Assembly (NCBI GenBank): GCA_018780145.1
Contig: JADMKA010000160.1
Location: 1-37,828 of the forward strand
Direction of reading: 5' to 3'
DNA length: 37,828 bases
Source of the DNA: Vitreoscilla sp.
GTDB lineage: Bacteria; Pseudomonadota; Gammaproteobacteria; Burkholderiales; Burkholderiaceae_C
The translations under genes and the position numbers were made by a program. Shown piece by piece: positions 2,375-26,745 of the stretch (the first letter of the stretch is position 1; every line of letters starts with the position of its first letter). The notes below the pieces were generated by a model. It searched no databases. It saw only the letters and a program-made list of their open reading frames with translations, and was not told the origin of the DNA.

Positions 2375-2397
2375 CCTGACCCAGCGTTGAAACCTTG

Positions 2398-8940: not shown

Positions 8941-9156
8941 TCAGCCGGCCCGATCCAACTTGTCGAGCAGTGCCAGTGCGCGCTTGGGGTTGCCGCGCGC
9001 CGCACGCGTTTCGAAGCGCACGCGAGCGTCGTAGTTGGCCAAGGCCACCGTGGCCAGCTCGTCCATCAGCTTGTTGATGCTGATCGAGTTCGATTTCGCG
9101 AGTGCCTTCAGGCGCTCGTGCTTGTCGTCGGGCAACCGAATCGTCAGGGTAGACAT
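8941..9156 (-). CDS. Ribbon-helix-helix antitoxin of a PIN toxin pair
   Basis: A 71-residue protein beginning MSTLTIRLPDDKHERLKALA, a ribbon-helix-helix (CopG/Arc-like) DNA-binding fold: one beta strand, then two helices including NSISINKLMDELATVAL. The basic C-terminal part (TRAARGNPKRALALLDKL) likely wraps the toxin. Its start overlaps the 3' end of the upstream toxin gene by 13 bases, so translation is probably coupled. Such antitoxins usually repress their own promoter; a matching palindrome lies ahead of the toxin gene. The in-frame upstream Met (MPGGLS) is less likely, since the conserved fold starts at MSTLT. Confidence 0.85.
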   Translation of the reverse strand: MSTLTIRLPDDKHERLKALAKSNSISINKLMDELATVALANYDARVRFETRAARGNPKRALALLDKLDRAG

Positions 9157-9578
9157 GGAAAGGCCTCCAGGCATTGCTCGGGCGTCAGAACCCGAAGCAT
9201 CGGGAACTTCAGTTCGCCGCGCGCAACATCCCGCAGATTGCGCGTCACGATGGCATCGGCCTGTGCGGCCACCGCCAACTCGATGAGGTGGTTGTCGCCT
9301 TCATCAGGCAGATTCGGCCGCCAGGCGTAAAAGACTTCGACCCAACGACAGCGACTCATCAGACCATCGAACACTTCGCCCCGTTCCTTGGCCGACAGTA
9401 CGGAGTCGGCGAACAGTTCTGAGCGGCTCAAAACGTCTTCGTACTCGGCAAGCAGCGCCGGCCCCAATACGGGCTGGTGCTGGCCCTGCAGGCATGCGCG
9501 GAGCACGGCGCGCCCCGCGCCGCCGCCACGCAGCAGCGCTCCGACCAGAACATTGGTGTCCAGCACGACCGTGGCCAT
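9144..9578 (-). CDS. PIN-domain toxin (COG1569-like ribonuclease)
   Basis: A 144-residue PIN-domain protein, predicted metal-dependent ribonuclease toxin. Conserved acidic residues are visible: Asp7 in VVLDTNVLVGAL, Glu45 in LLAEYEDVL, Asp95 in DEGDNHLIELA and Asp108 in ADAIVTRNLRD, the four-acid PIN active site. The gene is placed before its antitoxin, opposite to classical vapBC. The ATG at 9578 has no Shine-Dalgarno sequence, and an extended -10-like TGCTATCAT ends five bases before it, so the mRNA may be leaderless. The pair follows fahA by 47 bases on the same strand. It is called putative because activity depends on the real RNA target. Confidence 0.85.
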   Translation of the reverse strand: MATVVLDTNVLVGALLRGGGAGRAVLRACLQGQHQPVLGPALLAEYEDVLSRSELFADSVLSAKERGEVFDGLMSRCRWVEVFYAWRPNLPDEGDNHLIELAVAAQADAIVTRNLRDVARGELKFPMLRVLTPEQCLEAFPCLP

Positions 9579-9625: not shown

Positions 9626-10921
9626 TCACGGGGCCGTGCGACCGCCTGTCCCCGCGTCGGCGGGCATGACCGTCGCTTCACAGGGGCCGAAACCGATACT
9701 GCGGAAGCCGTTGCGGCTGCAACGGCCGGCGAGGGTGACGCTGTCGCCGTCTTCGACGAAGGCGCGGGTCTCGCCGCCGGGCAGGGCGATGCGCTGCTTG
9801 CCACCTTGCGTCAGCTCGAGCAGCGAGCCGGCCTGTTCCGGCCGCGGGCCGGACAAGGTGCCCGACCCGAACAGGTCTCCGCTGGCCAGCGCACAGCCGT
9901 TGACCGTGTGGTGGGCCACCAGCTGCGCCGCAGTCCAGTAGGCGGCGTCGGCGAAGTTCGAGTGGCTGATCACATGCGGCGGCAGGCCGGCCTCGCGCAT
10001 CGCGCGGCTTTGCAGCCGCACCTCGAGCGCGATGTCGAACGCGCCGCCGCGGCGGTTGGCCTCGTCGTCGAGGTAGGGCAGGGGGGCCGGGTCACCCTCA
10101 GGCCGCGTGAAGGCGCGACGAAACGGCGCCAGCGCCTCCATCGTCACCAGCCAGGGCGAGACCGTCGAGGCGAAGTTCTTCGACAGGAAGGGCCCGAGCG
10201 GCTGGTACTCCCAAGCCTGGATGTCGCGCGCACTCCAGTCGTTGAACAGCGTGATGCCGAACAGGTGCTGCTCGGCGCTGGCCATGGGGATGGCCTGGCC
10301 CAATGGGTTGCCGCGGCCGATGAACAGGCCCAGTTCGAGCTCGAAGTCGAGCCGCTCGGTCGGCGCCAGCCGTGGGGCCTCGTCAGTCGCGCCCTTCAGC
10401 TGGCCCTGGGGCCGCGCGAAGCCTTGGCCGCTGGGCAGGATGGTCGAGGCGCGCCCGTGGTAGCCGATGGGCACCCACTTGTAGTTGGGCAGCAGCGGGT
10501 TGTCGGGGCGAAACAGCCGGCCCACTGTGGTCGCGTGGTGGATGCCGACATAGAAATCGGTGTAGTCGCCGATCGTGCAGGGCACGCCGAGCTGCACCTC
10601 GGCCGTCGGCCGCAACGCCGCACGCCAGGCTTTTTCGTGGGCACTGCCGCGACGCAGCCCCGACGACAGGGCATGGCGCAGCGAGCTCCGGTCGGCAGGT
10701 GACAGGGCCATCAGCTGGTTCATGTCGCCGTGCGTGACCAGGCCGGTGGCCTGCAGGTCCAGCACCTGATCGCCGATGGCCACCCCGATGCGCCAGGGAT
10801 CGGAAGCGGCCGCGCGAAATCGCCCGAACGGCAGGTTCTGGATCGGGAAGTCGGCGTCGGTCGCGTTCGCCGACTCGACCCAACTGGCCAGCTCGGGGTC
10901 GTGGGTGGCGTCGATGATCAT
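9626..10921 (-). CDS. fahA: Fumarylacetoacetase
   Basis: Last enzyme of the homogentisate pathway, cleaving fumarylacetoacetate to fumarate and acetoacetate. The 431-residue protein carries the family motifs [29 protein letters not shown] with metal-binding acidic residues, and [20 protein letters not shown]. Length is normal (about 420). The start at 10921 overlaps the hmgA stop in an ATGA arrangement; the longer open frame upstream lies inside hmgA. It is the last gene of the minus-strand aromatic cluster. Confidence 0.97.
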
Positions 10922-12216
10922 GGGGTGAATCGGTCCTGCAGGCCGCTCCAGCAATCGGCATAGCCCGTGTCGAGCGCAGGGTTGCGCAACGCGAACTCGG
11001 TGGGGTGAAAGCGCCACCGGCTCTCGAACATGAAAGCCAGGGTGTTGTCCAGCTTGTGGGGCGCCAGCGCGGCGTTGGATGCCTTGTCGAAGGCCTCGGT
11101 GTCCGGGCCGTGGGGCACCATGCAGTTGTGCAGGCTCATGCCGCCGGGCTTGAAGCCCTCGGGCTTGGCGTCGTACTGGCCCTGCACCAGGCCCATGAAC
11201 TCGCTCATCACGTTGCGGTGGTACCAGGGCGGGCGGAAGGTGTCCTCGGCGACCATCCAGCGTGGCGGGAAGATCACGAAGTCGACGTTCGCGGTGCCCG
11301 GTGTGTCACTGGGGCTGGTCAGCACGGTGAAGATGCTCGGGTCCGGGTGGTCGAAGCTGATCGAGCCTATCGTCATGAAATGCGCCGTGTCGTACTTGAA
11401 CGGCACCAGGTTGCCGTGCCAGGCGACGACGTTGAACGGCGTGGCGGCCGACTCGGCGCGCCACAGCGAGCCACCGAACTTGCGCACGATCTCGCAGCGG
11501 CCGGGCGCGTCCTCGAAAGCCGCCACGGGCGCGAGGAAGTCGCGCGGATTCGCCAGCCCGTTGCTGCCGATCGGCCCGAGCTCCGGCAGCCGCAGCGGCG
11601 CGCCGTAGTTCTCGCACACGTAACCGCGGGCGGGCCCGTCCAGCGCCACCCGAAACGCCATGCCGCGCGGCAGCAGCGCGATCTCGCCGGGGGCCACCTC
11701 GAGCACGCCGAGCTCGGTGGTGATGGTCAGCCGGCCTTGCTGCGGCACCAACAGCATCTCGCCGTCGGCATTGACGAAGGCCCGATCGGCCATCGACCGG
11801 TTGGCCAGGTACAGGTGCGCGGCCATGCCGGTCTGCGCGTCGGCGTCCCCGTTGACGACGATGGTGCGCAGGCCCTCGACAAAGTCGGTGGGGGCCTCGG
11901 GAACCGGCATCGGTTGCCAGCGCATCGGGTTCGGCGGCGCGGCCGAGCCGTCGCGGGCGCCAGTCTTCAGGTACGTCTGCGACAACGGCTCGAAGGCGCC
12001 GACGACGACGGAGGGCTGGCGCCGGTACAGCCAGCTGCGCCGGTTGGTGTGGCGCGGCGCGGTGAACGCAGTGCCCGACAGCAACTCGGCGTACAGGCCG
12101 TGCGGAACCTTCTGCGGGCTGTTGCGGCCGACGGGCAGGGCGCCGGGCACGGCCTCGCTGGCGAACTCGTTGCCGAACCCGGACAGGTAGCGGCGTGGGG
12201 TGAGGCTGGGCTCCAT
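10918..12216 (-). CDS. hmgA: Homogentisate 1,2-dioxygenase
   Basis: Iron-dependent enzyme that opens the ring of homogentisate to maleylacetoacetate. The 432-residue protein has the family N terminus [13 protein letters not shown] and, in the cupin core, the iron ligands in [12 protein letters not shown] (His and Glu) and NCMVPHGPD (His). Length is normal. The start at 12216 follows AGAGAGGAAACC, a good ribosome binding site. The gene overlaps fahA by four bases and begins 16 bases after the DUF2783 gene, so all are in one transcript. Confidence 0.97.
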
Positions 12217-12232
12217 CGGTTTCCTCTCTTGC

Positions 12233-12433
12233 TCAGCGGTCGGCACCGCTGTCACGCGCGGCCTGCAGGGCCTCGCGCAGGACATCGATCGCACCGACGT
12301 GGTTGGCCAGCAGCAGGACCAGGCGCGCGTTCAGGGCGTGGCTCGCCTCGCTGGGCAGATCCCGGTGGGCGTCGATCAGTGCCTCGTAGAAGTCGTCCGG
12401 GGCGCTCAGGTTCGGGGTGGTGATCAGGGGCAT
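12233..12433 (-). CDS. DUF2783 small protein 1, partner of flavin monooxygenase 1
   Basis: A 66-residue soluble protein with [33 protein letters not shown], matching the DUF2783 family by recall. The function of the family is not established. It starts 11 bases after the flavin monooxygenase stop, and that stop lies inside the AAGGAG region that serves as its ribosome binding site. About half of its residues match DUF2783 protein 2 at 15223-15444, which has the same position after the second monooxygenase. I infer a coupling or regulatory subunit, comparable in size to MhaB of the two-component 3-hydroxyphenylacetate hydroxylase described in Pseudomonas putida; homology to MhaB was not tested. 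Confidence 0.85.
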
Positions 12434-12444
12434 GCGGTGCTCCT

Positions 12445-14139
12445 TCAGGTGGCGGCCAGCGCACGCGCCATGGCCTTCTGCACGGCGGCGGCGTCGGCAT
12501 GGCGCCAGCGCGCGCAGACATGGTGGTCCGGCCGCAGCAGCACGGCGCTGCCGGGGCGCAGGCCGTAGCGCTGTGCAACCAGGCCGTCCGTATCCCACAG
12601 CACCGCGGGGCCTGGCGCGGCTGCGGCGGTGATCTGCAGCACGGTCAAGGGCAGGGGGGCGGCGGTGGCCTCACAGGCTGCGGCCAGGCTCTCGGCACCG
12701 TCACCGGCCGCCAGCAGCAGCGTGAAGCCCGGGCCGAGCTGGCGCAACAGCCAGCCGCGGCGCCCGCCCGGCAGGCCCACGGGCGCGTCGGCCGCGGGAG
12801 CGCCGGGCACCATGCGGCCCTCGAACGGGTCTGCATCCGGCGTGTTGAGAGTCGAGCCATGCAACACGGCCGGCACCGACAGCCGCCCGCTGTTGACGAG
12901 CACACGCGCGAAAGCATGGTGCTTGGACAGGTGCAACACCGCGTCGCGGAACAGCCGGCTGATGGCACTCTTGGGTGTGATGAAGTCGGTGGCGCGTGTC
13001 GAGTTGAGGAGGTTCTCGTCGGCCGCGTATTCGCGCTCGCTGGCATAGGTGTCGAGCAGGGCGTCGGGCGCGGCGCCGCGCAGCACGGCGTCGAGCTTCC
13101 AGGCCAGGTTCTCAGCGTCCTGCACGCCAGAGTTGGCGCCTCGTGCCCCGAACGGCGAGACGCCGTGTGCCGAGTCGCCGGCGAACAGCACCCGCCCGTG
13201 GCGGAAGTGCTCCATGCGCAGGCAGGCAAAGGTGTAGACGCTGGCCCAGTCCAGTTCGTAGGGCACCTCGCGTCCCAGCGCCTGGCGCATCATCGCGTCC
13301 ACGCGCGGCCGGATGCGCTCGGGCTTGCGTTCTTCCTCGGGGTCGGCGTCCCAGCCGAGCTGGAAGTCGATGCGCCAGACGCCGTCGGGCTGGCGGTGCA
13401 GCAGCACGCTCTGGTTGGGGTGGAAGGGCGGGTCGAACCAGAACCAGCGTTCGGCCGGGAGGTCGACGGTGGGCATGCGCACGTCGGCGATCAGGAAGCG
13501 GTCGCGGAAGACCCGGCCCTTGCTCTCCTGGCCCAGCAGCGCGCGAAGCGGCGAGCGGGAGCCGTCACAGGCCGCGACGTGGTCGGCCGTGATCGTGTAG
13601 CGGCCCTCCGGCGTGTCGATGCCCAGGCGTACCCCGTCGGCATCCTGTTCGATGGCGGCGACGCTGTTGTGCCAGCGGATCTCGATGCCCGGCAACTCGG
13701 CCGCGCGCACTGCCAGGTAGGCCTCGGCGTAGTACTGCTGCAGGTTGATGAAGGCCGGCCGCTCGTGCCCGCTCTCGGGCAGCAGGTCGAAGCGATAGAG
13801 CTGCTCACCGCGGAAGAACACCTTGCCGACGTTCCAGCCCACGCCTTTTGCGCACATCGCGTCACCGACGCCGAGACGGTCCCAGATCTCGAGCGTTCGC
13901 TTGGCGAAGCAGATGGCACGCGAGCCGGTCGAAAGCTTGTGGTCGTTGTCCAGCAGCAGCACGCGCTGCCCGCGCTGGGCCAGGTCGATGGCCAGGCTCA
14001 GGCCCACCGGCCCGGCGCCCACGACAACGACCGGATGGCGGGCCGGCTGCGCCGCATCCTGGTCGGCGCAGCGTCGGTAAGCGTATGCATGGCGCTGGAT
14101 CGTCGCGCCATCGCTGTGGTAGCCGAGGGGGGCGCTCAT
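12445..14139 (-). CDS. FAD-dependent aromatic monooxygenase 1 (MhpA/MhaA-like)
   Basis: Class A flavoprotein hydroxylase of 564 residues, predicted to hydroxylate an aromatic acid with NAD(P)H and O2. Seen in order: the FAD Rossmann motif VVVGAGPVGLSLA near residue 40, the DG motif AACDGSRSPLR, the GD motif LFAGDSAHGVSPFGARGANSG, and a C-terminal thioredoxin-like domain. The start at 14139 is chosen because upstream codons run into the preceding gene and GAGGG lies before this ATG. Its neighbours hmgA and fahA suggest that the product is homogentisate or a related quinol, with 3-hydroxyphenylacetate as one candidate substrate. About half of its residues match monooxygenase 2. Confidence 0.88.
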   Translation of the reverse strand: MSAPLGYHSDGATIQRHAYAYRRCADQDAAQPARHPVVVVGAGPVGLSLAIDLAQRGQRVLLLDNDHKLSTGSRAICFAKRTLEIWDRLGVGDAMCAKGVGWNVGKVFFRGEQLYRFDLLPESGHERPAFINLQQYYAEAYLAVRAAELPGIEIRWHNSVAAIEQDADGVRLGIDTPEGRYTITADHVAACDGSRSPLRALLGQESKGRVFRDRFLIADVRMPTVDLPAERWFWFDPPFHPNQSVLLHRQPDGVWRIDFQLGWDADPEEERKPERIRPRVDAMMRQALGREVPYELDWASVYTFACLRMEHFRHGRVLFAGDSAHGVSPFGARGANSGVQDAENLAWKLDAVLRGAAPDALLDTYASEREYAADENLLNSTRATDFITPKSAISRLFRDAVLHLSKHHAFARVLVNSGRLSVPAVLHGSTLNTPDADPFEGRMVPGAPAADAPVGLPGGRRGWLLRQLGPGFTLLLAAGDGAESLAAACEATAAPLPLTVLQITAAAAPGPAVLWDTDGLVAQRYGLRPGSAVLLRPDHHVCARWRHADAAAVQKAMARALAAT

Positions 14140-14150
14140 CGCCTGGGCCC

Positions 14151-15110
14151 TCAGCCTTCCAGGGTTTCCCACATCTGGCGGTCGCGCTCGGCCGTCCAGA
14201 TGCGCGGGTCGCGGTACTGGGTGGCCTCGTCGTAGGCGCGGGTCACGTCGAAGGGCATGCAGTGATCGAAGATCACCCAGCTGCCGTACCGGGGTTTCAG
14301 CGCCGCGAAGGTTTCGCGGTACACGGTCTTCAGGTCCTTGCCGGCGGCCACGCCTGCCTGCACGCTGGCATACAGGTCGGAGACGAAGGCGCGGGTCACG
14401 TCCAGGCCCTTTTGCACCTGGGCCTCGCCCTTGAGTGCCGGGCCGCGGCCGGGCACCAGGGCGCTGGGCTTCAGCGCTGCGATGTTCTGCAAGGTTTGCG
14501 GCCAATCGCTGAAGTAGGCGTCGCCGGCATAGGGCGTGGCGTCGAACTCGACCAGGTCGCCGGACAGCAGGGTCTTCTCACCCGGCAGCCAGACCACCGT
14601 GTCACCCTTGGTGTGGCCGCGGCCGAGTTGCAGCAGCTGTACTTCCAGCTTGCCCAGCCACAGCGTGAGCTTGCCGCTGAAGGTGATGGTCGGCCAGGTC
14701 ATGCCGGGGGGCACCGTCTCGACGTTCTGGAACAGGCGCGGGAAGCGGCCGATCTCGCTGGCCTTGTCGGCCTCGCCGCGCTCGACGATCAGGTCGTAGG
14801 TGTCCTGGCTGGCCAGGATCTGCTGTGGCTGGTAGGCGCTGGCACCGAGCACACGAACCGCGTGGTAGTGCGTCAACACGACGTACTTGATCGGCTTGTC
14901 TGTCACCTCGCGGATGCGCCGGATCACGTCGGCGGCCATTGCCGGGGTGGCCTGGGTGTCGGCGACCAGCACCGCGTCGTCGCCGATGATGATGCCGGTG
15001 TTCGGGTCGCCTTCGGCCGTGTAGGCCCAGGCGTGCTCGGAAAGCTGCTCGAAGGTCACCTTCTTCTGTTCGAGATCGGCTTGGGATGCGAACTTCTTGG
15101 GCTGGGTCAC
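14151..15110 (-). CDS. Metallo-beta-lactamase-fold protein with altered metal site
   Basis: A 319-residue protein with the metallo-beta-lactamase fold: GIIIGDDAVLVADTQ, LTHYHAVRVLGAS, GRGHTKGDTVVWLP and LLSGDLVEF. The usual HxHxDH motif reads H81-Y-H83-A-V85-R86, and the late GHG-type site reads GRG, so the second-metal ligands are missing, while His81, His83, His166 and Asp185 remain. The start is GTG at 15110, with GGAG seven bases upstream. It lies between the two monooxygenase modules and has its own promoter. A hydrolase acting on a ring-cleavage or thioester intermediate is possible but not shown. Confidence 0.85.
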   Translation of the reverse strand: MTQPKKFASQADLEQKKVTFEQLSEHAWAYTAEGDPNTGIIIGDDAVLVADTQATPAMAADVIRRIREVTDKPIKYVVLTHYHAVRVLGASAYQPQQILASQDTYDLIVERGEADKASEIGRFPRLFQNVETVPPGMTWPTITFSGKLTLWLGKLEVQLLQLGRGHTKGDTVVWLPGEKTLLSGDLVEFDATPYAGDAYFSDWPQTLQNIAALKPSALVPGRGPALKGEAQVQKGLDVTRAFVSDLYASVQAGVAAGKDLKTVYRETFAALKPRYGSWVIFDHCMPFDVTRAYDEATQYRDPRIWTAERDRQMWETLEG

Positions 15111-15146
15111 GGGATGCTCCGTTTCGCAATAGACAAACGAGTTCGC

Positions 15147-15175
15147 ACTGTATGGTATTTGTTCGTCTCGTGCAA
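15147..15175 (-). promoter_or_regulatory. Predicted promoter of the metallo-beta-lactamase-fold gene
   Basis: Minus-strand TTGCAC (15170-15175) and TACAGT (15147-15152) are separated by exactly 17 bases. The predicted transcription start is near 15140, about 30 bases before the GTG. It divides the eight-gene cluster into two transcription units. The -10 matches consensus at four of six positions and the -35 at three. Confidence 0.5.
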
Positions 15176-15185
15176 ACGCGTTTGC
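15172..15185. promoter_or_regulatory. 14-bp palindrome at the -35 box
   Basis: GCAAACG-CGTTTGC is a perfect palindrome overlapping the predicted -35 element of the metallo-beta-lactamase-fold gene. It resembles LacI/GalR-type operators in having a CG centre, but no regulator of that class is encoded in the window. Confidence 0.6.
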
Positions 15186-15222
15186 GTAAGGCGAAGTTGT
15201 TGAGAAAATTCCCGTGAGGTCG

Positions 15223-15444
15223 TCAGCGGGCCGTTGCAGTCTGCGGGCTGGCGGGGCGACGCTGCATCGCCAAGCGGATGGCTTCAGACAGCACCTGGCG
15301 GTCGCCGATGTGGTTGGCCAGCAGCAGCACGAGCTTGGCCATCAGTTTGCGGCTCTCACCGTCGGGCAGCTCGCGTTGGGCGTCGACGAGTTCTTCGTAG
15401 AAACCGTCGGGGTCGGTGATCTGGGGCGTGCGGATCAAGGACAT
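15223..15444 (-). CDS. DUF2783 small protein 2, partner of flavin monooxygenase 2
   Basis: A 73-residue soluble protein, MSLIRTPQITDPDGFYEELVDAQREL..., closely similar to the 66-residue DUF2783 protein at 12233-12433 through the shared FYE-L-DA-R-LP and [11 protein letters not shown] segments. It starts 33 bases after the flavin monooxygenase 2 stop with a strong AAGGAG site. Placement after the monooxygenase in both modules suggests physical or functional pairing. No catalytic motif, signal peptide or membrane segment is visible. Confidence 0.87.
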   Translation of the reverse strand: MSLIRTPQITDPDGFYEELVDAQRELPDGESRKLMAKLVLLLANHIGDRQVLSEAIRLAMQRRPASPQTATAR

Positions 15445-15477
15445 GGTCGTCTCCTTGGCTTGTGGGGGGCGGGCCGG

Positions 15478-17118
15478 TCAGTGGCCCAGGCAGCGGGCCA
15501 TGGCGGCCTGGATGCGCGGGGTGTCGAACTGCCGCCAACGTGCGGCCACATGCTGGTCGGGCCGCAGCAGGTACACCGTGCCGGGGCGGCCGTCGTAGCG
15601 CTGGGCCAGCAGGCCCTCGCTGTCGATCAGGTCGCGACCCACCGTCAGCACGCGGGCGCTGAGGCCGCCGAAACGCACCTCGCCCACCGGCGCGGGGCCG
15701 AAGCAGAGCAGGGCGAAGTCCGGCCCCAGGTGGTTCAGCAGCCAGCCGGGGCGGCCCTGGGCGTCGGCCATCGGAGCGTCGGCGGCGTTGGTGCCGGGCC
15801 GCAGCGTGCCGGCGAAACTGTCGGCATCGGGCGTGTTCAGGGCAGAGTGCAGGTAGGGTGTGGGGGTGGACAGCCGGCCGCTGTTGACCATCGTCCGCGC
15901 AAAAGGCTCGTGATGCGCCAGCTCCAGCACGGCATCGCGCAGCACCAGGCTGCCCGGTGTCTTGGGCGTGATGAAGTCGGTGGACCGGGTGGACTGGCGC
16001 AGGTTGTCGTCTGCCGCGAACGCCCGCTCGTCGTGGTAGCTGTCCAGCAGCGCCGGCCCGGCCTGGCCATCCAGCACGCGCTGAAGCTTCCAGACCAGGT
16101 TGTCGATGTCCTGTACGCCGGTGTTCGCGCCGCGGGCGCCAAAGGGCGAGACCTGGTGCGCGGCGTCGCCGGCGAACAGCACCCGCCCGTGGCGGAACTG
16201 GTCGATGCGGCGGCAGGCGAACTGGTAGACGGAGACCCACTCCAGCTCGAAGTCAACCTCGCTGCCTAGCATCGCCTGGATGCGCGGGATCACCTTCTCC
16301 GGCTTCTTCTCTTCTTCAGGGTCGGCATTCCAGCCGAGCTGGAAGTCGATGCGCCAGACGTTGTCGCACTGCTTGTGCAGCAGCACGCTGGTGGGCGTGC
16401 CCGCGCCACCGGGCACGCTGGCGCCGGTATGGAACGGCGGGTCGAACCAGAACCAGCGCTCGGTCGGGAAGTCGGCCTTCATGACCACATCCGCGATCAG
16501 GAAGCGGTCCTGGAAGTACTGGCCGCTGAACTCGGCACCCACCATGCGGCGGGTGTCGCTGTTGGCGCCGTCGCAGGCGATGACCCAGTCGGCCTCCATG
16601 CGGAAGACGCCGTCGGGCGTCTCGACAGTCAGCACCGCGTGGTCGGCATGTTGCTGAAGGCTCAGCAGCTTGTGCTTCCAGCGCAGGTCGACCTGCGGCG
16701 AGCGCCCGCAGGCCTCGACCATGTACTCTTCCAGGTAGTACTGCTGCAGGTTGATCATGGCCGGCATCTTGTGGCCCGGCTCGGGCAGCAGGTCGAAGCT
16801 GTAGACGAGGTCGTTGCCGAAGAACACCTTGCCGACCTTCCAGCGCACGCCTTTCTCGACCATGCGCTCGCCCACGCCGAGCCGGTCCCACACCTCCAGC
16901 GGCCGCTTGGCGTAGCACACCGCGCGCGAGCCGATGCTCACGGTGTCGTTGTCGTCCAGCACCACGACAGGCAGGCCGCGCGCCGCGCATTCCAAGGCGG
17001 CCGTCAGGCCGATCGGCCCGGCCCCGATGACCACCACCGGGTGGCGCTGCGTGACCCCGTCGCGCTGTGCGGCGCTCTGGCGGTACGGAAACTTGGGGTA
17101 GGCATAGGTCTTCAGCAT
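15478..17118 (-). CDS. FAD-dependent aromatic monooxygenase 2 (MhpA/MhaA-like)
   Basis: Class A flavin monooxygenase of 546 residues. Motifs: VVVIGAGPIGLTAAL near residue 30, ACDGANSDTRR, and LFAGDAAHQVSPFGARGANTG, followed by a C-terminal thioredoxin-like domain ending in TVYLLRPDQHVAARWR. About half of its residues match monooxygenase 1; it has an insertion, GASVPGGAGTPTSV, in the substrate domain where the other protein has only a short loop. It lies between the VOC gene (25-base gap) and DUF2783 protein 2. The substrate is unknown; the two enzymes may take different phenolic acids toward homogentisate. Confidence 0.88.
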   Translation of the reverse strand: MLKTYAYPKFPYRQSAAQRDGVTQRHPVVVIGAGPIGLTAALECAARGLPVVVLDDNDTVSIGSRAVCYAKRPLEVWDRLGVGERMVEKGVRWKVGKVFFGNDLVYSFDLLPEPGHKMPAMINLQQYYLEEYMVEACGRSPQVDLRWKHKLLSLQQHADHAVLTVETPDGVFRMEADWVIACDGANSDTRRMVGAEFSGQYFQDRFLIADVVMKADFPTERWFWFDPPFHTGASVPGGAGTPTSVLLHKQCDNVWRIDFQLGWNADPEEEKKPEKVIPRIQAMLGSEVDFELEWVSVYQFACRRIDQFRHGRVLFAGDAAHQVSPFGARGANTGVQDIDNLVWKLQRVLDGQAGPALLDSYHDERAFAADDNLRQSTRSTDFITPKTPGSLVLRDAVLELAHHEPFARTMVNSGRLSTPTPYLHSALNTPDADSFAGTLRPGTNAADAPMADAQGRPGWLLNHLGPDFALLCFGPAPVGEVRFGGLSARVLTVGRDLIDSEGLLAQRYDGRPGTVYLLRPDQHVAARWRQFDTPRIQAAMARCLGH

Positions 17119-17143
17119 GGGGGATCCCGATGTGTGTGGTGCG

Positions 17144-17683
17144 TCAGCGGTCAGCGAAGGCGTTGGCGTGCATCCACGCGGCGTGCTTGGGTGCGCGCTT
17201 GGTGCGCGACCACTCGGCCAGCATGTCCCACTTCACCGAGTCGAGCTGGGCCATCTGCTCGTCGCTGGCGGTGTCGGCGGCCAGTTCGATGCGGTGACCG
17301 TTGGGGTCGAAGAAGTAGATCGACTGGAAGATCGTGTGGTCGGTCGGGCCCACCACCGGGATGCCTGCCGCCTCGAGCCTGGCCTGGGTCTGGGTCAGGG
17401 TCTGGACGCTGTCGACCTTGAAGGCAATGTGCTGTACCCACTCCGGGGTGTTCTCGTCGCGGCCCATGGGGGGCGAGTTCGGGATCTCGAAGAAGGCCAG
17501 GATGTTGCCGCCGCCCGCGTCCAGAAAGACGTGCATGTAGGGGTCCGGCGCATGGGTGCTCGGTACCTGGTCTTCGGCGATGGCGAGCACGAAGCCCATG
17601 TTCAGGTGCTCGCCGTACCAGCGCACGGTCTGCTCGGCATCCTTGCAGCGGTAGGCCACGTGGTGCATGCGTTCGATCTTCAT
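17144..17683 (-). CDS. VOC (glyoxalase/dioxygenase fold) family protein
   Basis: A 179-residue vicinal-oxygen-chelate protein with two beta-alpha-beta-beta-beta units. Likely metal ligands are His in MHHVAYRCKD, His in WVQHIAFKVD and Glu in GHRIELAAD, the normal ligand pattern of glyoxalase and extradiol-type enzymes. The C-terminal tail (residues about 140-179) is rich in Trp, Lys and Ala and has no known role. The start at 17683 has GGAG upstream and follows the divergent promoter region. First gene of the aromatic operon. Possible activities are isomerase, hydrolase or dioxygenase on a pathway intermediate; the sequence does not decide. Confidence 0.85.
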   Translation of the reverse strand: MKIERMHHVAYRCKDAEQTVRWYGEHLNMGFVLAIAEDQVPSTHAPDPYMHVFLDAGGGNILAFFEIPNSPPMGRDENTPEWVQHIAFKVDSVQTLTQTQARLEAAGIPVVGPTDHTIFQSIYFFDPNGHRIELAADTASDEQMAQLDSVKWDMLAEWSRTKRAPKHAAWMHANAFADR

Positions 17684-17715
17684 GGGGAGTCTCCGACGGG
17701 GTGATTGATGACCAT

Positions 17716-17743
17716 ATGGTAACACAGGTTACTAATGTGTCAA
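17716..17743 (-). promoter_or_regulatory. Promoter of the VOC-monooxygenase 2 operon
   Basis: On the minus strand, a perfect TTGACA (17738-17743) is followed after 16 bases by TACCAT (17716-17721). The predicted start near 17709 lies about 26 bases before the VOC ATG. The spacer contains an inverted repeat, so regulated expression is likely. Confidence 0.65.
17717..17734. promoter_or_regulatory. Inverted repeat, likely MarR operator
   Basis: GTAAC-ACAG-GTTAC (17719-17732), with a further matching T/A pair one step out, sits between the -35 and -10 boxes of the VOC promoter. A 10-bp palindrome, ACCATATGGT (17711-17720), overlaps the -10. The divergent MarR gene makes it the natural candidate repressor. 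Confidence 0.6.
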
Positions 17744-17797
17744 ATGAATCCAACAAGTAGACTGTCGGACTTGTCACTTCCGTTACGATACCGATCG

Positions 17798-18238
17798 ATG
17801 GACCTGCAGCAATTCCTTCCATACCGAGTGGCCGTGCTGGCTGAAGCCTTGAGCCAGTGCGTGGGTCAGGTCTACCGTGAGCGCTTCGGGCTGAGCCGTG
17901 ACGAATGGCGAGTGCTTGCCGCACTGGCCGACGGTGGCAGCCACCGCATGGTGGACATCGCCGCGCGCAGCACCCTGGAGAAGATGCAGGTCAGCCGCGC
18001 GGCGGCGCGCATGGAAGCCGCGGGGCTGCTGGGCAAGCTGCCCGATCCCGACGACGGCCGGGGCTGGCTGCTGCGGCTGAAGCCCGCCGGCCGGGCGCTG
18101 TACGCCAAGCTGGTGCCGATGGTGCGCTCTCGCGAGGCTTTCCTGCTCGAGGCCTTGACGCCCGAGGAGCGTGCCGTGCTCGACCGCGCGCTCACCCGGC
18201 TGGGGCAGCGTGCTGCCCAGCTGCTCAGCCAGGGCTGA
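17798..18238 (+). CDS. MarR-family transcription regulator of the aromatic cluster
   Basis: A winged-helix regulator of 146 residues: MDLQQFLPYRVAVLAEALSQCVGQVYRERFGLSRDEWRVLAALA, then the recognition region IAARSTLEKMQVSRAAARMEAAGLL and the wing DPDDGRGWLLRL. It resembles HpaR-like repressors that release DNA on binding an aromatic acid. In-frame ATGs at 17735 and 17744 would add 21 or 18 residues with no conserved content; the first overlaps the divergent promoter, so 17798 is preferred, though its ribosome binding site is weak. It likely represses the VOC operon and itself through the inverted repeat at 17717-17734. Confidence 0.87.
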   Translation: MDLQQFLPYRVAVLAEALSQCVGQVYRERFGLSRDEWRVLAALADGGSHRMVDIAARSTLEKMQVSRAAARMEAAGLLGKLPDPDDGRGWLLRLKPAGRALYAKLVPMVRSREAFLLEALTPEERAVLDRALTRLGQRAAQLLSQG

Positions 18239-18706: not shown

Positions 18707-19966
18707 ATGAACACCACGTCCATCAAGCGCCGGCAGTTGCTGCTGGCCGGGGCCGGTACCCTCGGCATGGCCGCCTGGCCCGCCGCGAACGCCGCCAAGC
18801 CGCGCAAGCAGGTCATCGTCATCGGTGGCGGCATGGCCGGCGCCACCCTCGCCAAGTACCTTCGCCTGTGGGGCGACCGCATCAACGTCACGCTGATCGA
18901 GCGCGCTCCCCGCTACACCAGCTGCATCATGAGCAGCCTGGTGCTGACCGGCCAGCGCCAGATTGCCGATCTGCGCTACAGCTATGCGCAGTTGAAGAAG
19001 GTCTACGGCGTCAACGTGGTGACCGACGACGTGCTGGCCGTCGACCCGGCGACGCTCAGCGTTCAGCTGGCCAGTGGCACGACGCTGTTCGCCGACCGGA
19101 TCGTGTTCGCACCCGGCATCGATTTCGATCCCGTGCCGGGCCTCACGAACCCCGACGCCATGCCGCACGCCTGGAAGGCGGGCCCGCAGACCACGCTGCT
19201 GCGGCAGCAACTGCAGGCCATGGCGCCCAACGGCGTGGCGGTACTGACCATACCGAAGGTGCCGTATCGATGCCCGCCCGGGCCCTACGAGCGGGCCTGC
19301 CTGCTGGCCGACTGGCTCAAGAAGAACAAGCCGCAGGCCAAACTCCTGGTGCTGGACGCGAACCCGGATTTCGTGACCGAGAAGGACAACTTCAGCCAGG
19401 CCTTCTTCGGCCTGCACGCCGATGTCATCGAGTACCGGACCCAGACCGAAGTGCTGTCGGCCGATGCCGCCACGATGACCCTGCAGACCACCACCGGCAG
19501 CGTGCACGGCGACGTGATCAACCTGATACCGCGCCAGCGTTGCGCACCCATCGTCAGCCAGACCGGCCTGGCCAACGCCACCGAGGGGCGATTCGCCGGT
19601 GTCGACGTGCTGAGCTACGAGAGCACGGTGGCTGCCGGCATCCATGTCATCGGCGACTCCAGTGCCACCACCCAGCCCAAGGCCGGACACATCGCCAATC
19701 AGGAGGCCAAGGTCTGCGCCGATGCCATCGTGCGCTCCTTCGGCGGCTACGCGGTCGACCCGGCGCCGGTGACGAACTCGGCCTGCTTCTCGACCATCAC
19801 GATGAAGGAGGCCTCCTGGCTGGAGGCGGTGTTCCAGTACGACCCGGCCACGCGGGTGATGGTGCCGGTGGCCAACGCCACGGGTGCGTCGGTCGGCTGG
19901 AGCGGCAACAACTTCGACCAGATGGAGACCTGGTTCAAGGCCTTGATGGCCGACACCTTCGCCTGA
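18707..19966 (+). CDS. fccB: Flavocytochrome c sulfide dehydrogenase, flavoprotein subunit
   Basis: Oxidises sulfide to sulfur or polysulfide in the periplasm and passes electrons to FccA. The 419-residue product has a twin-arginine signal (KRRQLLLAGAGTLGMAAW), the FAD motif VIVIGGGMAGATLAKYL, and the Cys in RYTSCIMSS at the place where the family binds FAD covalently. The redox disulfide partners are visible in VPYRCPPGPYERAC and TNSACFSTI. The start has a GAGGAG site. Together with fccA it lets the cell use or detoxify sulfide. A SoxF-type role is equally possible; no sox genes are nearby. Confidence 0.93.
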   Translation: MNTTSIKRRQLLLAGAGTLGMAAWPAANAAKPRKQVIVIGGGMAGATLAKYLRLWGDRINVTLIERAPRYTSCIMSSLVLTGQRQIADLRYSYAQLKKVYGVNVVTDDVLAVDPATLSVQLASGTTLFADRIVFAPGIDFDPVPGLTNPDAMPHAWKAGPQTTLLRQQLQAMAPNGVAVLTIPKVPYRCPPGPYERACLLADWLKKNKPQAKLLVLDANPDFVTEKDNFSQAFFGLHADVIEYRTQTEVLSADAATMTLQTTTGSVHGDVINLIPRQRCAPIVSQTGLANATEGRFAGVDVLSYESTVAAGIHVIGDSSATTQPKAGHIANQEAKVCADAIVRSFGGYAVDPAPVTNSACFSTITMKEASWLEAVFQYDPATRVMVPVANATGASVGWSGNNFDQMETWFKALMADTFA

Positions 19967-20040: not shown

Positions 20041-23000
20041 GTGGAACGGACGGGCTATCACTTGGATGGGGTGATGGGCTCCACGGTTGGCTCGTTGCTG
20101 CATCTTGCACGGCGGCCGGCTGGCGATGGGCCCGTGCTGGTGCGCGTGGCCACACATGCTGAGGGGAGTGCTCTCCTGGCGTCGTGGCAGGCTGAATTCA
20201 GGCTGCTGCAGACCATGGCGCTTCAGGGCCTCGCACGTCCCGAGGCCCTCGTCGACGACGAGGGCCAACCCGCGATCGTTTTCGACCATGCCGACGGCCA
20301 GACGCTCGAGCAGGCGCTGAATGGCGAGGCTTTCGGGGTCGCGCGCAGCCTGCGGCTGGCGATCCGCCTCACTCGCATCCTGGCAGCGGTGCACGCGGGC
20401 GGCATGCTCCTCGGCGACCTTCGTCCGGCCCACTTCTGGCTCGATCGCGGCACCGGCCTGCCGTGGCTGATCGACGCCAGCCACGCCACTGCCGAGGGCG
20501 TGCTGGCCGAATTGCCGGATGCACGCTCTCCAATCGACTGGGTGACGATGTCGCCCGAGCAGACCGGGCGCATCGGCCGCGGTGTGGATCGCCGCAGCGA
20601 TCTCTACGCCATGGGGCTGCTGCTGTACCGCCTGCTGGCGGGCCGCTGGCCCTTCGACGCCGACGATGCCCTGGGCTGGACCCACTGCCACATTGCGCGC
20701 ATGCCGCCGCCGCTGCCCTCGACGGTGCCCGCGGTGCTGGCAGAGATTGTCGGCCGGTTGCTTGCCAAGCTGCCTGAAGACCGCTACCAAAGCGCGACCG
20801 GCCTGCAGGCTGACCTCGAGCGCTGCCTGGTGCTGTGGGAGGCAGGCGGGCACATCGATCCTTTCGACCTGGGCGAGCAGGACCGCACCGAGCGCTTCGA
20901 CCTGCCGCAGCGCCCGTACGGCCGCGAGGCCGAACTGGCCGAGCTGGAGGGTGTTTTCGAACGGGTCCGCGCGGGCGGGGGAGCGGCCGTGGCCACGCTC
21001 TCAGGGCGGTCTGGCATTGGCAAGACGGCGCTGGTGGGCGAACTGCACCGCAGCGTGGTGGCGGCCCACGGCAGCTTCGTCAGTGCCAAGTTCGATCCCG
21101 CGCAGAGAGATACACCTTATGCGACGCTGGGCCTGGCGATGCGCGAAGCCCTGCGCCAGCGGTTGGCGGACAGCGAAGCCCAGGTGGCTGCGCTGTCTGC
21201 AGACGTGAAGGAGGCGGTGGGCGCGAACGGCCGGCTGCTGGTGGACCTGGCACCGCAGGTCGAACTGCTGATCGGCCACACCCCCGAGCCTCCCGCCCTG
21301 GCGCCCACGGAAGCACGCAACCGCTATTTCAGCGTGCTGCAGCGGTTCATCGCCGCGCTGGCGCCGCGTGGTCGCCCGCTGGTGGTCGTTCTCGACGACT
21401 TGCAGTGGGCCGACGATGCGAGCCTGAAATTCATCGAGCACCTGATGGCGCATCCCGGGATGCAGGCGTTGCTGATCGTGGCCGCATGGCGCGACAACGA
21501 GCTCGCCACCTCGCACCCGGTGCGCAGCGCGCTCGGGCGACTCCGCGCCTCGGGCGCTGTGGCGGCGGAGATCGCACTCGGCCCACTGACGGTGGGAGTG
21601 CTCAACCGGCTCGTCGCCGACACCCTGGGCGCACAGCCGAACGATTGCCTGGCCCTGACCGAGGCGGTCTTCGCTCGCACGGGTGGCTATCCGTTCCACT
21701 TCAGGCGACTGCTCGACACGCTGCACGACTCGGGTGTGTTGCGCTGGGACGCCGAGGCGCGGCGCTGGGCCTGGGATCTGGCGCGCATCGGCGACGAGGA
21801 CTTCGGCGACGACGTGGCAGAGCTGATGGCCGGCTCCTTGCGGCGCTTGCCGTCGTGCGCGCAGCGCTGCCTTCAGCGGGCGGCCTGCCTGGGCACCCAG
21901 TTCGACCTGCACCTTCTCGAACTGGCCACGGGCAGCCGAGGCGCGGAGCTCGCGGCCGACCTCGCGCTGCCGCTCAGGAGCGGGCTGATCGCGCGCAGCG
22001 GCGACAGCGCGCGCTTCACGCACAACCGAATCCGCGATGCGGCGTATGCCCTGGTGCCACGGGAGCGCCTCTCGGCCACTCACCTGGAGATCGCCCGCCG
22101 CCTGCGCGACGGTTTGGGCCCACAGGAACTGGCACGGCGCCCCTTCGAAGCCCTGCACCAGTTTCAATGTGGTGCCGATCGGCTCGAAGACCCTGCCGAG
22201 CGCCTGCAGGTGGCGGCGCTGGGGCTGGCGGCCGGGCGCCGCGCCAAGGCCGCTGCCGCGTTCGCCGCCGCGGCTTCGCACCTGGCCGCGGCCATCGCGC
22301 TCACGGGCGAAGCGACCTGGCTGGACGACTTCCGCCTTGCCTTCGGCCTCCGGATGGAGGCCGCCGCGTGCGAATATGCCTGCGGGCGCTTCGACACCGC
22401 AGCGGCGCTGATCGGCGAGTTGGCAGACCGAGCCACCACGAAAGTGGACCGCGCCTCGGTGTTTCACCGCCAGGTGCTGTTGCACGTCATGAAGTCGGAG
22501 CATGGGGCGGCTGTCGCTGCCGGGCTGCAATGCCTGCAAATGTTCGGCGTGGTGCTGCCGGCCCACCCGACGCCCGCCGAGGTTCGGGCCGAGTACGAGC
22601 AGGTCTGGCAGCAACTGGGCGGGCGCAGCATCGAAAGCCTGGCCGATATGCCGCTCGTCGCCGACCCGGAGATCGAGTCGCTGATGCGGGCGCTGGCCAT
22701 TCCGCTGGAAGCGGCCTTTTTCACCGACCTGCAGCTCTATCACCTGCTGCTGTGCCAACTGGTGAGGCGCGGCATCGAACACGGTGTCTGCCCGTCGTGG
22801 GCCCATGGCTGTGCGTTCTTCGGTGTCGTGCTCGGGCCGGTGTTCGGCCGCCATGCTGACGGCGACCGCTTCGCATCGCTGGCCAGCGCACTCGTCGAGC
22901 GTCATGGCTACATCGTGCAGCGCGCGCGAGTGCGGTATGCGCTCGGCATGGTGGCGTTCTGGACCCGGCCCCCGGGCGAGGCCATCGAGTGCATGCGGAT

Positions 23001-26000
23001 CGCGGCCAGTGCCGCCGACGAGACCGGCGATCTGACCTTCGCCTGCTATAGCCGCATGCAGGCTGTGGCCGGCATGCTGTTGCGCAACGATGCGCTGGAC
23101 GATGTGGCTGAAGCGGCGACGAAGAGCGGTGAGGTCGCTGTCGAGGCCGGCTTTCTCGACATGGCGGATCTGGCCGCCAGCCAGCGCCAGTTCGTTGCCG
23201 CACTGCGCGGTCGCACGGCGGCGCTGGCGTCGATGAACGACGCCTCCTTCGACGAAGCGGCGTTCGAGGGGCGGCTCGGCCCGGAGCGCATGCCGACGAT
23301 GGTGTGCCTGCACTGGATCCACAAGATGCAGCTGCATGTCCTGGCCGGTGACGCCGAGTCGGCGATATCGGCAGCCGGCCGCGCCGAGCCCTTGCTGGAA
23401 GCCGCCACGGCGCAGGTGCAACTGGCGGATTACCACCTCTTCGGTGCGCTGGCACTGGCGTGCCTGCCGGGCGCTGCGGCCATGCGGCAGGACAGGCTGG
23501 CTGCGCACCTTGCGCCATTGCAGGCTTGGGCATTGCAAAAGCCACGCACTTTTGGCTGCCGACACCTCCTGGTGGCGGCCGAGCGGGCCCGCCTGTCGGG
23601 GCTGGCCGACGATGCGGCCGATCTCTACGCCCGGGCTGCCAGCGCCGCCGCGCAACACGGATTCACCCAGATCGAGGCCCTGGCGCACGAGCGGGCCGCT
23701 TCCTTCCACGCCGAGCGGGGCGAGCAGGGCATCGCCGAAGCGCAGCTGCGCGACGCTCGGCGGTGTTACGCCCGCTGGGGCGCCGTGGCCAAGGTGAGCC
23801 TGCTCGAGCAGCAGCACCCGGGGTTGCGCACGGCACCTGCCAGCGGCACGGGCGTGCCACTGGATCTGCAGTCGATCATCAAGGCGTCGCAGGCGATCTC
23901 GGGCTGCATCGTCATCGACGAGCTCGTCGACCAACTGCTTCGGCTGGTCCTGCAGACCGCAGGGGCGCAGCGCACGGTGCTTCTGCTGGTCACAGGCGGC
24001 CAGCTCGCGCCGGTGGCGGAAGCGGCAGTGGGCACCGGCGCCGGTATCGACCTGCGTCGCTTCGAGCCGTCCGAGCCGGTGTCCGAGCTGCCGGTCGCGG
24101 TGTTGAACTACGTGCAACGCGCGCACGAACTCGTGCTATTGGCCGATGCGTCGCAGCCGAACGCGTTCTCGGGCGACGCGTACTTCATGCGGCACGCGTC
24201 CAAGTCGCTGGCCGCCTTGCCGGTGCTGCGTGGCACGGTGCTGGTCGGCGTGCTCTTCCTCGAGCACCGCGGCGTTCCCAACGCCTTCACCGCCGGTCGG
24301 CTGAACGTGCTGGAGGTGCTGGCGGCGCAGGCGGCGATCTCGCTGGACAACGCGCGCCTGTACGAGGCGTTGCAGCGTGAGAACGAGAGCCGGCGACGCG
24401 TCGAGGAGGCGCTGCGGTCGAGCGAGTCGCAGCTTCGGCGGCTGGTTGATTCGAACATCGTTGGCGTCATTCACTTTCGACTCTCGGGTGCCATCACCGC
24501 GGCCAATGACGCCTTCCTGGGCCTGGTCGGCTACAGCCGCGAGGACCTGAACGCCGGGCGCCTGGACTGGGCTGCGATGACACCACCCGAGCAGCGCAGC
24601 CTCGACGAGACCAAGCTGGCAGAGCTGCGGCAGCACGGCAGCTGCGCGCCGTACGAGAAGGAGTTCGTGGTCGGCGACGGGCGCCGCGTTCCGGTGCTCG
24701 TCGGCGGCGCCCTCTTCGAAGGCTCCGAGGACGGCGGCATTGCCTTCGTGCTGGACCAGAGCGCGCGACGTCAGGGCGACGCCGATCGCCAGGCACGTGC
24801 CGCGGCCGAGGAGGCGAACCGGCTCAAAAGCGAGTTCTTGGCCAACATGAGCCATGAGATCCGCACCCCGATGAACGCCATCCTCGGTATGTCGCACCTG
24901 GCACTGCAGAGCGGGCTCGACGAACGCCAGGCTGGCTACGTGCGCAATGTGCATCGGGCGGCCGAGTCGCTGCTGGGCATCTTGGGCGACATCCTCGACC
25001 TGTCCAAGATCGAAGCCGGGCACCTGGAGATGGAGCACATCGAGTTCGATCTCGACGAACTGCTCGACCAGCTGGCCTCGGTGGTTGGTCTCAAGGCCGA
25101 GCAGAAGGGGCTCGAACTGATCTACGCAATGCCACCTCGTCTGCCGCGCCGGCTGGTCGGCGACCCCGCCCGCCTGCGGCAGGTGCTGGTGAACCTGGGC
25201 AACAACGCTGTCAAGTTCACCGAGCGCGGCGAGGTGGTGGTTTCGGCGTCATTGCTGCAGCGCGAACCGGGTTCGGTCCAGCTGCGATTCGAGGTGCGCG
25301 ACAGCGGCATCGGCATCGGGCCGGAGGAGCGTGATCGCCTGTTCAAGCCTTTCTCGCAGGCCGACAGCTCGACCAGCCGACGTTTTGGCGGTACGGGTCT
25401 CGGGTTGGCGATCAGCCGCCACCTCGTGCACATGATGCGCGGCGACATCGGGGTCGACAGCGAGCTCGGGCGGGGCAGCACGTTCCATTTCACCGCCTGG
25501 TTCGGGCTCCCGGCCGACACCCAGGCACCACCCGCCGATCGGCGCCAGCTGCTGATGGGCCGCCGCGCGCTGGTGGTGGACGACAACGATTGCGCGCGCC
25601 AGTTGCTGCTGGAGATGGCCACCGGGCTCGGGCTTCAGGCCGAGGCGGTGGACGGTGGTGCCGCCGCCGCCGAGGCCGTGGTCGCTGCAGACCACGGCGA
25701 CCGGCCGTTCCAGCTGCTGCTGCTCGATTGGCAGATGCCGCAAGTGGACGGCGTCGAGTGCCTGCGCCGATTGGCGGCGATGCCGTTGCGCCATCGTCCG
25801 CCGACGGTGCTGTTGATCACGGCCTATGGCCGCGAGCTGGCAGCGCAGCGCATGGCGGCCGAAGGCGTGAGCGCTGCAGCGACCCTGACCAAGCCAGTCA
25901 CGCCCTCGACCTTGCTGGACGCCTGCCTGTCCGCGCTGGTGCCGGCGGCCGTGCAGGCGCCGATGGCCACGCGGCGTGACCGGGCCCTGCAGCAGCACCG

Positions 26001-26745
26001 GGCTGCCATGTTCGGGAAGCGCCTGCTGCTGGTGGAGGACAACGAGATCAACCAGGAACTGGCCTGCGATCTGCTGGCCGAAGCCGGTGTCGAGGTCGTG
26101 GTGGCGAACGAAGGCCGCGCGGCGCTGGCCGCCTTGGAGCGCCAGCATTTCGACGGCGTGCTGATGGACTGCCAGATGCCGGTCATGGACGGCTACGAAG
26201 CCACGCGTGCGCTGCGCCGTGACCCGCGCTGGCGCACGCTGCCGGTGATCGCGATGACGGCCAACGCGATGGTCGGTGACCGCGAGAAGGCCATGGATGC
26301 CGGCATGAACGACCATGTCGCGAAGCCGATCAGCGTCGACGACCTGTTCGAGAAGCTCGCGCGCTGGACACAGCCGGTGGCAGGCCCCAAAGGGATCCCC
26401 GGGTTGGACAACAGCGCGCTGAAAGCCAGCGGCATCGTAGCGGGCAGCGCGCTGCATGAGCGGCTGCTCGAGATGTTTCTCGATCGCGAGAGCGGGTTCG
26501 GTGAGCGCTTCGAAGCGGCGGCTGACGATCCGCCGCTGGCGCATCGGCTGGCGCACGACCTCAAGGGCGAGGCTGCGACGCTCGGGGTGGAGTCGGTCCG
26601 GACCGCCGCGGAAGCGCTGGAAGCGGCCTGTGCCCGGGGCGGCCAGCGCGAGGAGATCATGCCCCTGCTGGAGGCGACGCTGTCGGCGCTGGCGCCGGTG
26701 ATCGAGGCGCTGCGGGAGCGCCACCGCACTGCGCCGAGGCGTTGA
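20041..26745 (+). CDS. Pseudokinase-ATPase-GAF-PAS hybrid histidine kinase
   Basis: A 2234-residue protein of the trifunctional Ser/Thr kinase/ATPase/histidine kinase type. Domains in order: protein-kinase-like (about 20-265), AAA/STAND ATPase with Walker A GRSGIGKT (Lys328) and Walker [13 protein letters not shown] (Asp452-453), a helical repeat region (about 700-1230), GAF (about 1280-1440), PAS (about 1460-1575), HisKA with His1605 in [11 protein letters not shown], HATPase with NNAVKF and [12 protein letters not shown]1 (Asp1896), REC2 (Asp2043) and HPt (His2172 in AHDLKGEA). The kinase-like part has LGD for HRD, His for the catalytic Asn and DAS for DFG, so it is probably inactive. No membrane helices are evident. 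The GTG start lacks a clear ribosome binding site. No output regulator is adjacent. Confidence 0.92.

Follow-up and report, generated by a model that had tools for sequence, protein, structure and literature searches.

The 37,828-nt stretch of Vitreoscilla sp. DNA analyzed here (contig JADMKA010000160.1, positions 1 to 37,828 of the forward strand; hereafter the window) carries, within a homogentisate gene cluster, two gene pairs, each composed of a flavin-dependent monooxygenase (FMO) gene and a small gene of the Pfam family DUF2783. We consider it likely that each pair specifies a two-subunit aromatic-ring hydroxylase, in which a class A-type flavin adenine dinucleotide (FAD) monooxygenase works with a dedicated three-helix DUF2783 coupling subunit. 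In the genomes surveyed, the pairing is near-invariable, the two partners share descent, and their genes have fused repeatedly. The four genes are the following:

17118-15478, minus strand: FMO1, class A-type flavin hydroxylase, 546 aa (NF006002, 830 bits; PF01494, 221 bits)
15444-15223, minus strand: DUF2783 small protein paired with FMO1, 73 aa (PF10932, 86.6 bits)
14139-12445, minus strand: FMO2, class A-type flavin hydroxylase, 564 aa counted from the ATG at 14139, the profile scan having begun at 14136 (NF006002, 845 bits; PF01494, 217 bits)
12433-12233, minus strand: DUF2783 small protein paired with FMO2, 66 aa (PF10932, 100 bits)

Both hydroxylases score above the curated cut-off of NF006002 (PRK08132 FAD-dependent oxidoreductase; 416 bits) and both small proteins above that of PF10932/DUF2783 (25 bits). 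These profile matches bear out the original prediction, made by a model from the DNA letters, that two such pairs lie on the minus strand here. It had also proposed that about half of the residues match between the copies, and we find 300 of 557 identical between FMO1 and FMO2 (54%) and 33 of 59 between the small proteins (56%). The description of the modules as tandem holds for the shared hydroxylase-then-DUF2783 order; they are not strictly tandem, as a gene for a metallo-β-lactamase (MBL)-fold protein (15110-14151) intervenes. The small genes start 33 nt (FMO1 pair) and 11 nt (FMO2 pair) past the hydroxylase stop, and the only matches found to either family in the host genome (5.57 Mb, 96.5% complete) are the window's own two pairs. 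Separately, transcription activator-like (TAL)-effector repeats that scored against the 73-aa protein were dismissed as a repeat artifact, no single stretch passing alone.

Group A flavoprotein monooxygenases bear the motifs GxGxxG, DG, and GD, and each is normally a single polypeptide that carries out its own NAD(P)H-dependent FAD reduction. FMO1 and FMO2 show this signature in their PF01494 matches and in the motifs GAGPxGL, CDG, and GD[AS]AH. Their strict small partner points to an exception to this single-polypeptide rule.

Adjacency was surveyed in 398 genomes across Pseudomonadota, with NF006002 matches taken at E values up to 1e-100 and the top three FMO candidates per genome scored. 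DUF2783 occurs in 59 of these genomes, and the NF006002 hydroxylase occurs in exactly the same 59. For 62 of the 64 DUF2783 matches, the gene immediately upstream, on the same strand, encodes an NF006002 hydroxylase (gaps of 8 to 426 bp, median 29); one of these 62 matches scores below the family cut-off (24 bits). The two exceptions are a match in genome G460 that is itself below the cut-off (22 bits) and one in G187 that shares a single reading frame, as a fusion, with a partial hydroxylase (255 bits) at a contig start. The constant adjacency that the prediction called for is thus present. Seen from the hydroxylase side, the same genomes contain 77 FMOs, of which 62 have a DUF2783 match directly downstream and 13 a divergent homolog there; the last two are the G187 enzyme, cut by the contig end, and one at locus L138, to which we return below. 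A second sample, of 150 genomes at family level, which recorded presence per genome only and scored the top eight FMO candidates, gave 108 genomes with DUF2783 and 110 with an FMO, the extras being, by eye, G619 (with a divergent partner, L162) and G657.

The divergent homologs overturn a Pfam-only view in which the 15 of 77 FMOs without a DUF2783 match would have been partnerless: 13 of the 15 are followed, as the next gene, by a small protein similar to DUF2783 in length and pattern. A DUF2783-only profile matches eight of these 13 weakly (E of 6e-5 to 0.09) and one at E of 3.7, and gives no match for four. Seven were scanned against Pfam, and none reaches any cut-off, three matching DUF2783 weakly at 14.6 to 20.1 bits. 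In a profile-profile comparison, the two types align at 95% probability. Sixteen sequences chosen by position and pattern went into the divergent-partner profile, so that its scores on these are circular; its held-out matches are the partners in Paraburkholderia xenovorans LB400 (see below), the plasmid proteins L304-L307 (52.7 to 62.0 bits), and those at further loci, L148, L151, and L162 among them. In public plasmid annotation, the divergent partner appears as "hypothetical protein" (all four loci inspected) and its DUF2783-type counterpart as "DUF2783 domain-containing protein" (all three loci inspected).

A unified partner profile run on 299 genomes returned 52 matches, of which 46 come immediately after an NF006002 hydroxylase gene; G460, G187, and four weak ones make up the remainder. 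The accompanying figure of 46 of 48 FMOs is conditional, FMOs having been counted only in genomes with a unified-profile match, and the set of 77 FMOs is the preferred basis. A larger collection, non-random in that many loci were chosen for matching and hence giving no frequency estimate, comprised 173 hydroxylase loci (the window's two excluded) and yielded 170 distinct pairs, 136 of the DUF2783 type and 34 of the divergent type; the loci left unpaired are two contig ends and L138. Among the 162 separate pairs, 124 small genes start no more than 30 nt past the hydroxylase end, and gaps reach 172 nt at most. As controls, the 1.5-kb flanks of 14 MhpA-type loci (NF004829, above cut-off) gave no partner score above 7.5 bits, nor did the flanks of a fourth, more distant LB400 FMO.

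The two types of partner follow the descent of the hydroxylases. In a tree of 124 rows (118 ingroup, 6 outgroup), obtained by a quick search with Shimodaira-Hasegawa-like approximate likelihood ratio test (SH-aLRT) supports only, and with long branches in the outgroup and L141 and a half-filled L144 row as its weak spots, DUF2783-paired (88 rows) and divergent-paired (30 rows) hydroxylases form two groups with supports of 99 and 98. Partner type changes once on this tree, and none of 500 shuffles was as low. Several genomes, G107, G263, and G405 among them, have one pair of each type, each hydroxylase standing beside its own kind of partner. FMO and partner identities correlate (r = 0.67 for 136 pairs, r = 0.81 for 34 pairs; 0 of 300 permutations), relatedness being ignored in this calculation. 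FMO1 clusters with three other sequences, L050, L067, and L107 (support 100), and FMO2 with G621 inside a 24-row group (support 99). The window pairs are therefore separate paralogs and do not stem from a recent duplication.

At 8 of the 170 loci, hydroxylase and small protein occupy one open frame, in most cases with Ala/Pro-rich linkers (by eye). The fused loci include two Cupriavidus gilardii records and C. cauae, together one clade, and the fusion label takes five changes on the hydroxylase tree. G187, which shares a genus group with the fused G236, contributes a ninth fusion (L139, 2-1000, plus strand): its contig opens partway through a hydroxylase, truncated by the assembly, whose reading frame continues into the small protein. 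Repeated gene fusion is a classic sign of physical association. Together, the adjacency, the co-occurrence in the same 59 genomes, the one-change co-descent, and the fusions support the earlier proposal that DUF2783 proteins are partners of these hydroxylases.

Conservation of gene order could also arise if the small proteins were mere operon neighbors, acting elsewhere in homogentisate metabolism or its regulation, and genes for MBL proteins, vicinal oxygen chelate (VOC) proteins, HmgA, and fumarylacetoacetase (fah) do recur nearby too. Yet both the fusions and the one-change co-descent are with the FMO, and there are pairs on plasmids with other neighbors. Pairs also exist without an HmgA match in the fetched flanks: among 80 named FMO2-type relatives (L164-L243), an HmgA homolog lies within these flanks in 28 and a fumarylacetoacetase in 27. 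We regard this explanation as very improbable.

Predicted structures give a further view of the partnership. AlphaFold2 models FMO1 alone with a mean predicted local distance difference test (pLDDT) of 93.7 and a predicted template modeling score (pTM) of 0.94, and the FMO1-linker-DUF2783 read-through chain with 91.5 and 0.92. The small part of the chain forms three helices (570-581, 586-604, and 607-619) with high pLDDT. By our own arithmetic, from the definition of pTM, a small part left unplaced would be expected to lower pTM to ~0.85, whereas the observed 0.92 implies a mean error near 5 Å between the FMO1 and DUF2783 parts. Judged by pTM, the model thus seems to dock DUF2783 on FMO1. Foldseek against the PDB returned, by title, flavin monooxygenases only, such as PieE and HbpA, among the 50 of 1,970 matches listed.

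Conservation in the small proteins bears on what such a partner might do. Across both types, the best-kept positions are Y (95%), L (98%), L (93%), A (98%), and G (90%); one Asp reaches 91% overall, with only 53% within the divergent type. From these alignments, we read the role of the small protein as structural or allosteric, not catalytic. MhaA/MhaB of Pseudomonas putida U, reported in 2005, is a 3-hydroxyphenylacetate 6-hydroxylase composed of a flavoprotein and a small coupling protein (PMC3053370). It is also conceivable that the small protein acts as a factor for the assembly or stability of the hydroxylase, in its folding or FAD loading, and is not needed in each catalytic cycle. The gene for such a factor would be expected to sit just as strictly beside the hydroxylase gene, to descend with it, and perhaps to become fused to it, and no polar residue is strongly kept across both partner types. 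Natural fusions in about five lineages, however, favor a lasting subunit, as do the docking onto a folded FMO that pTM suggests and the description of MhaB as a coupling protein. On balance, we hold an assembly factor to be unlikely.

A third possibility, that of a group D-type two-component enzyme whose small protein is a flavin reductase or a carrier supplying reduced FAD, takes its support from a review that lists 3-hydroxyphenylacetate 6-hydroxylase among the group D representatives of its table (PMC6165268). Against it stand the size of the partner (66 to 73 residues in three predicted helices), which has no match to a reductase family in Pfam, and the PF01494 membership of the FMOs, together with the flavin monooxygenase fold shared by the 50 PDB matches listed. 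Nor was a separate flavin reductase found among the genes of positions 9626-18238, scanned or read by eye. For the NF006002 family, the group D listing looks mistaken because a flavin reductase is unlikely at the size of the small partner, and we give this possibility the least credence of all. Unlike the review, we would therefore not class MhaAB with the reductase-plus-oxygenase enzymes.

Several points weigh against a coupling subunit and deserve mention together. At L138, the only hydroxylase whose missing downstream partner is not explained by a contig end (3980-5689, plus strand), a partner-like gene (2365-2628, minus strand; 42 bits) lies ~1.4 kb upstream on the opposite strand, where by eye it heads an apparent transporter operon. 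The four weak unified-profile matches (17.5 to 20.6 bits) fall in three genomes without a listed NF006002 match; we take them to be due to chance. Within the DUF2783 type, polar residues are near-invariant (D 100%, N 99%, H 97%, S 96%), so that a more active role than coupling is possible. The docking is judged by pTM alone, on a chain obtained by reading through the stop codon with a 12-residue linker. Finally, the term coupling protein for MhaB comes secondhand, from a citing paper (PMC3053370).

Taking these points into account, we still regard an MhaB-like subunit, serving a broad clade of hydroxylases, as the most likely identity of DUF2783. In the mechanism that we propose, the small subunit would bind its hydroxylase, presumably in a stable 1:1 complex, and, once bound, would couple NAD(P)H oxidation to ring hydroxylation, by analogy with the role reported for MhaB. 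Both hydroxylases would then supply homogentisate or a direct precursor of it to the adjacent HmgA and fumarylacetoacetase. A bolder extension is that DUF2783 and its divergent relatives, MhaB included, form one obligate coupling-subunit superfamily for the entire ancient group A-type clade, the window pairs dividing 3- and 4-hydroxyphenylacetate (the latter through an NIH-shift 1-hydroxylation) between them on the way to homogentisate; we put this forward tentatively and think it rather doubtful. We know of no bacterial gene assigned to the NIH-shift 1-hydroxylation of 4-hydroxyphenylacetate.

The surroundings of the pairs are relevant to their possible substrates. The remaining features of the cluster are the following:

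17735..18238, plus strand: MarR-family regulator (PF12802, 45 bits), divergent from module 1 (VOC gene)
17144..17683, minus strand: VOC/glyoxalase-fold protein (PF00903, 67.8 bits, scanned from 17665; start codon by eye), whose gene opens module 1
15123..15195, no strand: imperfect inverted repeat with 26-nt arms (77%), 5' of the MBL gene, possible regulator site
15110-14151, minus strand: metallo-hydrolase of the MBL fold, 319 aa (PF00753, 46 bits), whose gene opens module 2
12216-10918, minus strand: HmgA, homogentisate 1,2-dioxygenase (TIGR01015, 682 bits; cut-off 511)
9626..10921, minus strand: fumarylacetoacetase, an open reading frame (ORF) with its start by eye; homologs follow HmgA in relatives, and fahA is annotated in L308 and L309

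The order of transcription on the minus strand is thus VOC, FMO1, first DUF2783, MBL, FMO2, second DUF2783, hmgA, and fumarylacetoacetase. A sigma-70-like match lies 5' of the VOC gene; together with the inverted repeat, it would be compatible with separate control of the two modules, which is possible, yet neither is evidence for it.

The hmgA and fumarylacetoacetase genes come right after the FMO2 module, and FMO2 is probably a homogentisate-forming enzyme. FMO1, which belongs to a separate subclade and has a VOC partner gene, probably serves a different hydroxyphenylacetate-like substrate or a different condition. A VOC gene precedes the FMO1-clade genes in L050, L067, and L107, the three closest tree relatives of FMO1, and 64 of the 80 FMO2-type relatives have an MBL homolog upstream on the same strand. 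That two copies reflect two substrates or two conditions, as first proposed from the sequence, is plausible; 3- versus 4-hydroxyphenylacetate as the two substrates would be a guess. A single-domain VOC protein recurs in such clusters (L048, L105, L107, and L308); in the first three, its gene is flanked by the MBL gene on one side and the FMO gene on the other. The VOC and MBL genes resemble a glyoxalase I/II pair, perhaps hinting at quinone or maleylacetoacetate chemistry, and the MBL gene beside FMO2-type hydroxylases might provide a lactonase or thioesterase step.

Other genes near the cluster can be listed briefly. At 8941-9578, beside the homogentisate genes, a small CopG/ribbon-helix-helix-like gene (by eye) and then a PIN-domain gene (PF13470) make a toxin-antitoxin-like arrangement. 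A flavocytochrome c sulfide dehydrogenase-type flavoprotein (PF21706) lies at 18707-19966 with a small cytochrome-like ORF before it (by eye), and 20041-26745 is an ORF of 2,234 aa that by eye combines a kinase-like part, an ATPase part, and histidine kinase and receiver domains.

If true, the bolder extension would add a third flavin hydroxylase architecture, neither self-sufficient nor reductase-dependent. Through the pairing itself, a Pfam family of unknown function would gain a testable function, Pfam covering only part of the partner family, and assays of the many proteins now labeled as stand-alone "FAD-dependent oxidoreductase" could be missing a subunit that they require. For enzymology and structural studies, single-chain versions are at hand in the natural fusions. 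The claim that a small subunit would be new for most members of the family stands in part: the two-part kind of enzyme was known before from MhaAB, whereas its generality, the link to DUF2783, and the fusions appear to be new. A search of the open-access literature, with subscription papers outside its reach, found no paper that connects DUF2783 with MhaB or with the role of a hydroxylase subunit.

Among known systems, the MhpA-type enzymes, HbpA, and PieE of group A share the FAD-binding family and overall fold of FMO1 and FMO2, and the MhpA-type enzymes differ in lacking a small partner gene at the 14 loci examined. The closest parallel is MhaA/MhaB, which we compared through its LB400 homologs. 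PMC3053370 gives these as 47% (MhaA) and 35% (MhaB) identical to the P. putida U proteins, 560 and 60 aa long, and located beside hmgA1B1C1. On LB400 chromosome 1, we find, in order, an NF006002 hydroxylase (746 bits), a small protein, HmgA (60% identical to the window HmgA), and fumarylacetoacetase; our equation of this locus with BxeA2727/BxeA2726 rests on chromosome, gene order, and neighbors, the proteins being 570 and 66 aa with the starts we chose. The architecture is that of the window pairs, a flavoprotein of ~560 aa followed by a homologous small protein of ~60 aa, beside hmgA and fah. The resemblance to MhaA/MhaB noted in the original prediction is thus confirmed at the level of homology, with differences: LB400 MhaA (38% identical to FMO1 and 44% to FMO2 over aligned parts) belongs to the clade sister to the DUF2783-paired hydroxylases and has a divergent-type small protein, which scores ~81 bits with the divergent profile versus ~8 with that of DUF2783. 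LB400 has three hydroxylase/small-protein pairs in all (L248, L249, and L165): besides the published mha locus, chromosome 2 holds a DUF2783 pair behind an MBL gene and a second divergent pair. A parallel to module 1 is found in Bradyrhizobium diazoefficiens, where, according to PMC6710368, bll2330-bll2329-bsl2328 is a predicted operon changed by -4.2-, -3.7-, and -3.5-fold in an nnrR mutant under anoxic denitrifying conditions; likened by annotation, its order of VOC protein, FAD oxidoreductase, and DUF2783 protein is that of module 1 in the window.

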